Shown: one piece after another, positions 11,567-34,043 of the stretch | Position numbering within the stretch: position 1 is the first letter of the stretch | Layout: each line of letters opens with the position of its first letter | Source of the DNA: Actinomycetota bacterium | GTDB taxonomy: Bacteria > Actinomycetota > Actinomycetes > Actinomycetales > Microbacteriaceae | Length of the DNA stretch: 64,000 nt | Direction of reading: 5' to 3' | Assembly: GCA_009702455.1 (NCBI GenBank) | Contig: WLIA01000001.1 | Span: 21,693 to 85,692 of the forward strand | The notes under the pieces: generated by a model | Seen by the model: only the letters and a program-made list of their open reading frames with translations | What the model was told of the DNA's origin: nothing | Database searches by the model: none | Translations under genes and position numbers: made by a program

Positions 11567-12082
11567 TCAAGTGAGGTCCGCGTGTCGCGGAATAAGATTT
11601 CACCAAGGGGGAAAATGACAACTGGCAGACCTGAGTCGCACCTACTGCGTGAGCTTCATGTGTTAGCAAGTGCGGTGGTGGTGCTCGTCGGCTTTTTGGC
11701 TGATCCGTTCATCGTTCAAAAGATCGGACCCGTCCAGGTAATTCAATCCTTTGGCATCCTTTTCGTGGCAGGGGCAATAGCTTTTTGGGCTATTGGCTTG
11801 ATTCTCACCAGAAAGCTGCCTGTTGTGATCAACGTCTGGTCTGTCATCGTTTCGGCTACCGCAAACATGGCAGCGGTTGGCGGATCTTTTCTTGCCTTCA
11901 GAATTTGGTACAACAAGTGGCCCTTCAATCTTGAGCCTGTTGAACCCACCGGCTTTGAGGGTCCTGGAGCGCCCCTCTTCATACTGCTTGTGCTCCTAGC
12001 CTTCTCGGGATTGGTTTGGCTCCTTGGCCTCCTCGCAGTAGGGGCAACAACACTCAATCAGGATCTGAAACTAATTGATTGA
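11564..12082 (+). CDS. Membrane protein, unknown function
   Basis: 172-aa ORF with several TM segments; true start may be ATG at 11615. Confidence 0.55.
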   Translation: MSSEVRVSRNKISPRGKMTTGRPESHLLRELHVLASAVVVLVGFLADPFIVQKIGPVQVIQSFGILFVAGAIAFWAIGLILTRKLPVVINVWSVIVSATANMAAVGGSFLAFRIWYNKWPFNLEPVEPTGFEGPGAPLFILLVLLAFSGLVWLLGLLAVGATTLNQDLKLID

Positions 12083-30915: not shown

Positions 30916-32862
30916 CTAGTCGTTTGCTCCGCCGGCAATTTTGCCGCTGATGATATCCATCACGCTGGTATCAGCCAAAGTGGTAACGTCACCAATTGGT
31001 CGATCTTCTGCAACATCGCGAAGCAGGCGACGCATGATCTTTCCGCTGCGAGTTTTCGGCAATTCTGCAACCACGATTATCGTGCGCGGTTTGGCAATTG
31101 GCCCGATTTCTTTGGCCACGTGCTCGCGCAGAATTTTGCTAACGTCAGCGTCGTTGCCTGCAGCTTCGATTTGGTTCTGTCGAAGAATCACAAACGCAAC
31201 AATTGCTTGACCGGTGGTTTCATCTTTTGCACCGACAACCGCGGCTTCGGCAACAAACGGATGCGACACCAAAGCGCTCTCGATTTCAGCCGTCGACAAG
31301 CGGTGACCAGAAACGTTCATCACGTCGTCAACGCGACCCAGTAACCAGAGGTCGCCCTCTTCATCCCACTTAGCGCCGTCGCCGGCGAAGTATTTGCCCT
31401 CGAACTTCGACCAGTAGGTTTCTTTGAAGCGGTCTGGGTCACCCCAGATGCCGCGAAGCATTGCCGGCCAAGGTTCGGTAAGCACAAGCAACCCGGGATC
31501 GCCGCGACCTAGCTCGTGACCTTCGTCATCGAGCACTGCGGCCGAAACACCCGGCAGCGGCACTTGGGCAGAGCCAGGCTTCAGGGTGGTCACGCCCGGC
31601 AGGGGCGAGACCATGATCGCACCGGTCTCGGTCTGCCACCAGGTGTCGACAATCGGGGCTTGCCCGCCACCGATGTGTGCGCGGTACCACATCCATGCTT
31701 CAGGGTTGATTGGTTCGCCAACCGAACCGAGAACGCGAATGCTCTTTAGGTTGTATTTGTCTGGAATCTCGCTGCCGAGTTTCATGAACGTGCGAATCGC
31801 GGTTGGCGCGGTGTAGAAAATGCTGACCTTGTATTTCTCGATGATGCTCCACCAGCGACCCCAGTCTGGAATGTCTGGTGTTCCTTCATAGATCACCTGG
31901 CTCGCGCCGTTTGCAAGTGGGCCGTAGACAACATAGGAGTGACCGGTGATCCAGCCGACGTCGGCGGTGCACCAGTAAATGTCTTTTTCTGCGTGCAGAT
32001 CGAAAACGTTTTTGTGCGTGTATGCGGCTTGCGTTAGGTAGCCGCCCGAAGTGTGCAAAATGCCTTTTGGTTTTCCGGTGGTGCCCGATGTGTAAAGAAT
32101 GAAAAGCGGATGCTCTGCATCGAACGCCTGCGCCTCGTGCTCTTCGCTCGCATTGCCAACGGCTTCTCTCCACTCAACGTCACGGCCTTCGACCCAGTCG
32201 ACGTCTTGGTTGGTGCGGCGAACTACCAAAACATTTTTCACGGATGCGCACTTGCCTGCGCTGAGTGCCTCGTCAACTGCCGGCTTGAGTGCACTGGCTT
32301 TACCCTTGCGATATCCGCCGTCTGCCGTGATAACAAGTTTTGCTTCTGCGTCTTCGATTCGCGAGCTGAGTGACTCGGCGCTGAAGCCGCCGAAGATCAC
32401 GCTGTGAACTGCGCCCACACGGGCAACCGCCTGCATCGCGATAACGGCTTCGGGAATCATCGGCATATAGATGGCAACGCGATCGCCGGCTTTGATGCCG
32501 AGTGCGGTTAGGGCGTTTGCGGCCTTCTTAACTTCGCGGGTTAGTTCTGCGTAGGTGAGTTGCTTGCTGTCGCCCGGTTCGCCTTCGAAGAAGATAGCGG
32601 TGCGATCTCCGTTGCCGGCTTCAACGTGACGGTCTAGGCAGTTGTAAGAGATGTTGAGTTTGCCATCGGCGAACCACTTGGCAAACGGGGCATTGCTGAA
32701 ATCTAGGGTCTGGGTGAAGGGTTTGTGCCAGTAGAGCTCACGTGCCTGCTTGGCCCAGAAGCCAAGCCTGTCGGCCTTTGCTTCGGCATAGAGACTGGCT
32801 TGAGCTATGGCTTGGCGAGCAAAAGCTTCACTCGGCGCGAAGTGGTAGTTCTCGGCAGACAT
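30916..32862 (-). CDS. acs: Acetyl-CoA synthetase
   Basis: AMP-binding YTSGTTGKPKGILHTSGGYL, DTWWQTETGAIMVSPLPG, C-terminal KTRSGKIMRRLLRDVA. Confidence 0.96.
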   Translation of the reverse strand: MSAENYHFAPSEAFARQAIAQASLYAEAKADRLGFWAKQARELYWHKPFTQTLDFSNAPFAKWFADGKLNISYNCLDRHVEAGNGDRTAIFFEGEPGDSKQLTYAELTREVKKAANALTALGIKAGDRVAIYMPMIPEAVIAMQAVARVGAVHSVIFGGFSAESLSSRIEDAEAKLVITADGGYRKGKASALKPAVDEALSAGKCASVKNVLVVRRTNQDVDWVEGRDVEWREAVGNASEEHEAQAFDAEHPLFILYTSGTTGKPKGILHTSGGYLTQAAYTHKNVFDLHAEKDIYWCTADVGWITGHSYVVYGPLANGASQVIYEGTPDIPDWGRWWSIIEKYKVSIFYTAPTAIRTFMKLGSEIPDKYNLKSIRVLGSVGEPINPEAWMWYRAHIGGGQAPIVDTWWQTETGAIMVSPLPGVTTLKPGSAQVPLPGVSAAVLDDEGHELGRGDPGLLVLTEPWPAMLRGIWGDPDRFKETYWSKFEGKYFAGDGAKWDEEGDLWLLGRVDDVMNVSGHRLSTAEIESALVSHPFVAEAAVVGAKDETTGQAIVAFVILRQNQIEAAGNDADVSKILREHVAKEIGPIAKPRTIIVVAELPKTRSGKIMRRLLRDVAEDRPIGDVTTLADTSVMDIISGKIAGGAND

Positions 32863-33005
32863 CTTTGTGCTCCAACCTTTGTTTCCTGCTCGTCATAATG
32901 CCACAGATTGAAACATCAGTTTCGGGTGGTTTTGGGTTTCTCAGAATTCGCTGGCAAACCGTTGAAAATTTGCCACGCTAACGCCAAATGGGGATAGCCG
33001 AAGAT

Positions 33006-33011
33006 TATGAT
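33006..33011 (+). promoter_or_regulatory. Candidate -10 box (TATGAT) for the 6C-like RNA
   Basis: TATGAT ends 7 bp upstream of the first hairpin base (33018); no convincing -35. Confidence 0.4.
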
Positions 33012-33017
33012 TTAAGT

Positions 33018-33107
33018 GTTGGTTTATTCCAACCTCCCATACTGGTTCCCCCAATCAGGTATGGGCGGCGGCAGGTTTCCCCCAAACCTGCCGCCATCTC
33101 CTTTTTA
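33018..33107 (+). ncRNA. 6C-like small RNA: three consecutive hairpins, two with C-rich loops, ending in a terminator
   Basis: GTTGG/CCAAC (33018-33033); CCCATAC...CCCCC...GTATGGG (33036-33065); GGCGGCAGGTTT-CCCCC-AAACCTGCCGCC (33067-33095) then TTTTT. Confidence 0.75.
33067..33107 (+). terminator. Rho-independent terminator (third hairpin of the 6C-like RNA)
   Basis: Perfect 12-bp stem, CCCCC loop, downstream T-tract. Confidence 0.85.
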
Positions 33108-33164
33108 ATTCACAGATTTGCGTGGAATACCCCGCACCCTTTGGCCAGCAGCCATCCTTGGCCC

Positions 33165-34043
33165 ATGTTTACTCAACCCGAGCTGTTGCCAATAGCCCGG
33201 CTGCTTGCTGAGGCTGGGGTCACCGACCTGGTTTTCAACGGCTACTCTCACGCAGCCGTATTGCGGCACAATCGGTGGTCGGCGGTGGAATCGGGCTTTG
33301 AAAGCGAAGAGCAGCTGGCTAAGGCAGCCAAGTTTCTGGTTTCAATGGGTGGCAAACAGATTGATCTTGCGCACCCATTTGCAAGCGCAAACCTCGACAA
33401 ATTGCGTGTTCACGCAATGCTGGCCTCGGCGGTCAATCGGCAAACCCACCTTTCGATTCGCGTTCATGCTTCACGCGACTTGGCACTGAGTCAATGGCTC
33501 GGTGTGAATCAGATTTCTCAAGCGCAGACTCAACAGTTGCGACACGTGCTCGATAGCCGAGAAAGTTTCTTGATCAGCGGTTCGGCCGGTGCCGGTAAAA
33601 CCACGCTGCTTCGAGCGCTGCTATCTGAGAAATCTTCTGAGCGAGTTATCACAATTGAAGACACTGCCGAGTTGCAACTGTTATCGAGAGACAGCGTTTC
33701 ACTTGTAGCTCGTGAGCCCAATGTCGAAGGTCGCGGCGAGATCACGCTTAATCAACTTTTGATTGAGTCGCTTCGAATGCGCCCAGATCGAATAGTTATC
33801 GGTGAGGTTCGGTCTGCCGAACTAATTACCCTGCTGCAGGCCAGCAGCTCGGGGCACAGCGCGGCGGCAACCATCCATGCGACTTCAATCGAGCAAGTCT
33901 CTGCACGCATCGAATCGATTGCCACCGCCAGCCTGTTTGAACCCCAGCAAATCACGCGTCTGGCCAAGAGCACGATAGCTTGGCTGATTCACGTATCAAG
34001 CCAGGCTTCGCGCCGTTGCCTAGAAATTAGGCGAAATGTCTGA
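33165..34043 (+). CDS. CpaF/TadA-type secretion ATPase
   Basis: LISGSAGAGKTTLLRALL, ITIEDTAELQL, RMRPDRIVIGEVRSAELITLLQASSSGHSAAATIHA; ATG at 33165 chosen because an RNA plus terminator lie upstream. Confidence 0.93.
   Translation: MFTQPELLPIARLLAEAGVTDLVFNGYSHAAVLRHNRWSAVESGFESEEQLAKAAKFLVSMGGKQIDLAHPFASANLDKLRVHAMLASAVNRQTHLSIRVHASRDLALSQWLGVNQISQAQTQQLRHVLDSRESFLISGSAGAGKTTLLRALLSEKSSERVITIEDTAELQLLSRDSVSLVAREPNVEGRGEITLNQLLIESLRMRPDRIVIGEVRSAELITLLQASSSGHSAAATIHATSIEQVSARIESIATASLFEPQQITRLAKSTIAWLIHVSSQASRRCLEIRRNV

Follow-up and report, generated by a model that had tools for sequence, protein, structure and literature searches.

The acs-tadA intergenic region

The window analysed here is a stretch of 64,000 nucleotides from a genome of the actinobacterial family Microbacteriaceae. 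The element of interest occupies the gap between two divergent genes, acs on the minus strand, whose start codon ends at 32862, and tadA on the plus strand, which starts at 33165 (Table 1). It consists of three hairpins and a T tract at 33018-33107, two of the hairpins having CCCCC loops. A sequence-only reading of the window had described this arrangement, with the C loops on the last two hairpins and the T tract as part of a terminator, and both the sequence and the fold confirm its coordinates.

Table 1. Features of the acs-tadA region (positions are those of the window)
Feature	Position	Strand	Description	Evidence
acs, divergent upstream gene	30916-32862	-	TIGR02188 acetate--CoA ligase, 971 bits	profile match; common to 19 of 20 family 6C loci
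Probable -10 box, TATGAT	33006-33011	+	6 nt before H1	sequence; TANNNT in congeners
Hairpin H1	33018-33033	+	5 bp, GUUGG-UUUAUU-CCAAC, loop UUUAUU	fold
Hairpin H2	33036-33065	+	12 bp with one bulge, CCCCC loop at 33048-33052	fold; R1 match; compensatory changes
Hairpin H3, terminator stem	33067-33095	+	12 bp, CCCCC loop at 33079-33083	fold; terminator scan; compensatory changes
T tract of intrinsic terminator, TTTTT	33102-33106	+		sequence; terminator scan
tadA, next gene downstream	33165-34043	+	TIGR03819 TadA family ATPase, E 2.2e-67	profile match; RNA-tadA order common to congeners and family

The predicted minimum free energy of 33018-33107 is -41.1 kcal/mol, compared with -21.1 +/- 2.75 kcal/mol in dinucleotide shuffles (z = -7.28), and none of 200 such shuffles was equally stable. 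A terminator scan of 32863-33200 found a single terminator-like site, namely H3 with its T tail. Because no gene ends in the gap between acs and tadA, the transcript served by this terminator starts within the gap. Moreover, the divergence of the two genes means that there is no upstream gene in need of it, and H3 can therefore be rejected as the terminator of a neighbouring gene. A TANNNT sequence occurs at the place of the -10 box in all 24 congeners examined, against 13.2 expected from shuffles. On the minus strand, a promoter-like sequence at 33032-33004 (TTGGAA-17-CATAAT) overlaps the -10 box of the RNA, and it may be that acs and the RNA start from overlapping divergent promoters.

Conservation of base pairing

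The covariation alignment comprised 45 sequences from the genus, 41 of them distinct. In this alignment, which was fitted to the covariance model R1 (see below) and hence leans towards the structure, 97.5% of cells are paired, compared with 75.5% in shuffles and 31-45% in slid controls. Compensatory changes are found in 19 of the 23 base pairs across the 45 sequences, and not one of 500 shuffles reached any of the five covariation measures. Hairpin H1 lies outside R1, and its stem changes on both sides among congeners, giving variants such as GTCAGC/GCTGAC, GTCGAGC/GCTCGAC and GTTAGGT/ACCTAAC. The small-RNA gene at 33018-33107 is real and strongly conserved.

Relationship to 6C RNA

The Rfam model of 6C RNA, RF01066, gives no match at E <= 10, neither here nor anywhere else in the genome of the window (1.29 Mb, 85% complete), just as the sequence-only reading had anticipated in suggesting that covariance models might score the element poorly. 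The gathering score of 47 bits is a curator's threshold and not a biological definition. Since the element falls below it, we refer to a 6C homologue and not to an Rfam-grade member. How well does this threshold serve in related genomes? Within the same family, RF01066 matches 113 of 150 genomes at E <= 10, mostly below the cut-off, and only 5 of the 150 pass it. The match in the C. glutamicum control, which we take to be the known 6C locus, is also below the cut-off. The 6C RNA of C. glutamicum has been demonstrated by Northern blot (PMC4046766). In this clade, the Rfam threshold performs poorly as a test for 6C.

Homology of the element to 6C can be traced through intermediates. Among the best 20 family loci called by RF01066, tadA lies downstream in 17 and a divergent acs lies upstream within 1.5 kb in 19, so that these RNAs share the position of the window element, in the order acs / RNA / tadA. 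Covariance model R1 was built from 18 of these best 20 sequences, none of them from the genus of the window. Within the window genome, R1 matches one place only, 33033-33099, with 36 bits and E 0.0015 (E 7.3e-5 when the window alone is searched), E-values that, owing to a short calibration, are uncertain by about fivefold. The single copy also leads us to reject a repeat or mobile palindrome. In the genus, 44 of 60 genomes have an R1 match; comparison with a TadA search shows that 43 of the 44 share a contig with tadA and immediately precede it, and the remaining one (genome G048) lies at a contig end. In the family at large, R1 finds the RNA in 125 of 150 genomes and 74 of 85 genera, the named members including Leifsonia poae and Cryobacterium (loci L216-L218 and L220). 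Thus, nearly all members of this large actinobacterial family carry 6C, which the Rfam threshold has kept hidden. In other orders, R1 also recovers loci called by RF01066, with identical coordinates, albeit weakly (mostly 20-31 bits). As the sole R1 match of its genome, and with covariation in support, the element is homologous in sequence and structure to called 6C members, and the identification as a 6C-like RNA made in the sequence-only reading is supported by a model derived entirely from RF01066-called relatives.

The position of the element tells the same story. The B11/6C RNA of M. tuberculosis is encoded in the Rv3660-Rv3661 intergenic region (PMC12395582), in agreement with the place near Rv3660c given in the sequence-only reading. 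In a mycobacterial-type locus, a divergent HAD hydrolase gene precedes an RF01066 match (90 bits), which is followed by Ssd/CpaE (TIGR03815, 355 bits); this is the Rv3660-Rv3661 arrangement, where B11 was found. The tad genes of the window match TIGR03819 TadA (below the curated cut-off), TadE_Rv3655c (below the cut-off) and the TIGR03816 Rv3654c family, and by these profile matches they correspond to the same locus as the mycobacterial-type 6C neighbourhood. The element therefore sits beside the tad/Ssd locus, whose tad genes are pilus genes, as does the Rv3660-Rv3661 RNA. No Ssd/TadZ gene lies between the window RNA and tadA, which is directly next. The earlier statements that synteny with tad is kept and that no Rv3660c/TadZ-like gene is visible both hold, the former also across the family, where the order is the same. 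The nearest named relatives of acs, 72-73% identical, are in Leifsonia and Cryobacterium. The association of 6C with tad genes is an old one, and hints at a conserved core function on which the species-specific targets of mycobacteria have shed no light.

With 6C (RF01066) and mycobacterial B11, then, the window RNA shares hairpins with C-run loops, a terminator hairpin in last position, a -10 box just upstream, and a co-directional place next to the tad/Ssd region. The 6C layout, a pair of hairpins each capped by a C-homopolymer loop with the terminator hairpin coming last, is present in full. The window RNA differs in having C5 loops where C6 or more is typical, in giving no RF01066 match, in its stems, whose sequences do not resemble the mycobacterial ones, and in having tadA rather than Ssd as the next gene. 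With the 6C RNAs of the family, including those of Leifsonia poae and Cryobacterium, it shares the order acs / RNA / tadA and near-identical loop frames, GATTCCCCCCAATC and GTTCCCCCCAAC, all being found by one model. The window RNA widens the known 6C family and does not represent a novel kind of RNA.

Loop length

The loops of 6C RNAs typically contain six C residues, and eight in C. glutamicum (PMC4046766). Both loops of the window element are C5, and so fall short of the six per loop that is typical, though not universal, of 6C. Counts of C in H2 and H3 across the genus (three rows, L017, L021 and L029, parsed by eye) are (5,6) in 17 loci, (5,5) in 16, (6,5) in 5, (6,6) in 5 and (7,5) in 1. 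Two loci upstream of tadA depart from the pattern: L019 has an interrupted H2 loop, CCACCC, together with a C4 loop in H3, while L017 has an H2 loop without a C run (GTTTTCAAAT) and keeps C5 in H3. In the rest of the family, 41 of 59 loci are (6,6), a count that leaves out one false match (L120). Six C in both loops is the prevailing state in the family, whereas most loci of the genus have at least one C5 loop, and the earlier description of the loops as reduced is a fair one for the genus when set against the rest of the family. Five-C loops are a trend of the genus and not a peculiarity of the window, with drift in both directions. Relatives at the same position carry four to seven C per loop, save for the one interrupted and the one lost loop, and this natural series could be used for testing the role of loop length in regulation by C-loop/G-tract pairing.

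Probable mode of action and targets

The best explanation of the locus, and one that we hold with good though not complete confidence, is that the element at 33018-33107 specifies an sRNA some 90 nt long, a homologue of 6C (B11) in the same position, which has its own promoter and terminator and most likely acts in trans via its C5 loops. We infer the transcription, boundaries and trans action of the window RNA from experiments on mycobacterial B11/6C. In M. marinum, the C-rich loop of the B11 terminator pairs with G tracts by the ribosome-binding site, as established via compensatory mutations (PMC12395582), and in M. abscessus either C-rich loop is sufficient (PMC10470900). Considering that the window RNA keeps exactly the parts used by B11, the same action is the one best expected of it, and it most likely behaves like mycobacterial B11/6C. 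The RNA would start from its own sigma-70-type promoter and end at its own terminator, formed by H3 and the T tract. Either or both of its two exposed C5 loops would initiate base pairing at G tracts near ribosome-binding sites, and this pairing would lower translation and promote decay of the mRNA. Such trans action would proceed without a known RNA chaperone.

Which mRNAs might be targeted? The sequence-only reading had suggested predicting G-rich targets, and we searched 694 kb of the window genome with 610 heuristic gene starts. G5 tracts occur at -20 to -1 of 6 of the 610 starts. The search did yield a few good sites, but complementarity to the loops around these 610 starts was no stronger than that of scrambled oligonucleotides, and neither of the two best candidates has a conserved G-tract target site. 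One candidate is the ORF at 11615-12082, whose product is a small membrane protein; AAGGGGGAAA at 11605-11614, directly ahead of its start codon (ATG at 11615), could form 8 base pairs with the region of the H3 loop. We rejected this ORF, which has no relative in the other 59 genus genomes searched. The second candidate, dgt, was rejected as well: the same G5 run is present in the nearest relatives only, where it encodes the end of an overlapping upstream gene, and elsewhere the G runs are scattered. Target sets differ among mycobacteria (PMC12395582), and so the lack of enrichment does not refute the proposed mechanism.

Alternative interpretations

Could the element instead be a cis-acting 5' leader of tadA, with H3 as an attenuator and tad expression arising by read-through? 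The element is co-directional with tadA, the T tract is only 58 nt upstream of the gene, and Rfam gives RF01066 the type Cis-reg. In addition, many congeners have a poor T tract (CCCCTAATTTAA), which would permit read-through. However, no alternative antiterminator pairing is apparent, the distance to tadA differs greatly between loci (58-209 nt), and the 6C structure is kept in other orders where Ssd is the next gene. Furthermore, the 6C RNAs of mycobacteria and corynebacteria are discrete RNAs of about 90-100 nt, which act in trans in mycobacteria (PMC12395582, PMC4046766). On balance, we consider a leader unlikely.

A different proposal concerns the five-C loops, and here too we are doubtful. 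The five-C seed of this small-genome lineage might reflect functional retuning, such that loop length tracks the length of G tract tolerated near start codons; the RNA would then act on far fewer targets or on other ones, perhaps with control of the tad operon among its roles.

C-rich terminator loops are found in many sRNAs, and the hairpins might accordingly be convergent or belong to an unrelated sRNA, for instance a CcsR1-like CCUCCUCCC RNA. Indeed, cmscan gives weak matches (18-20 bits) to CcsR1 (RF02791), BjrC80 and ar7, which share a C-rich loop in the terminator hairpin. These scores are far under the cut-offs of 60-80 bits (CcsR1 scores 18 bits on the window, E 0.61, against a gathering score of 65.3 bits) and come mainly from the terminator hairpin, and we reject all three identities. 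The three RNAs differ from the window element in position and are without a matching second C-loop hairpin, whereas position, two-loop layout and R1 tie the element to 6C. An origin outside 6C is very improbable.

Finally, an N-terminal extension of TadA encoded through the hairpins, suggested by the open ORF at 32988-34043 and by a tadA frame that stays open through the element in 11 of the 26 loci of the genus, the window included, is refuted by frame changes and stops, in that 15 of the 26 loci carry a stop codon within the element or downstream of it, all three registers occur between element and tadA, and conservation follows base pairing.

Other features of the 6C loci

A DnaA-box-like motif, TTNTCCACA, lies between the RNA terminator and tadA in most congeners. 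It was observed downstream of the element in loci L001-L029 and L084-L101, and 27 of 45 genus loci are within one mismatch of TTATCCACA, compared with 0.8 expected from shuffles. The copy in the window, TAATTCACA at 33106-33114, is weak, with two mismatches, and beyond the genus only a few genera with small genomes show the motif clearly. In a mycobacterial-type genome, an Ms1 RNA (RF02566, 229 bits; L051, 63-363, minus strand) lies about 1.1 kb from 6C. One locus, L123, has two R1 matches on the same strand, at 150-230 and 260-333, 30 nt apart and scoring 53 and 26 bits; the pair is possibly a tandem copy of the RNA.
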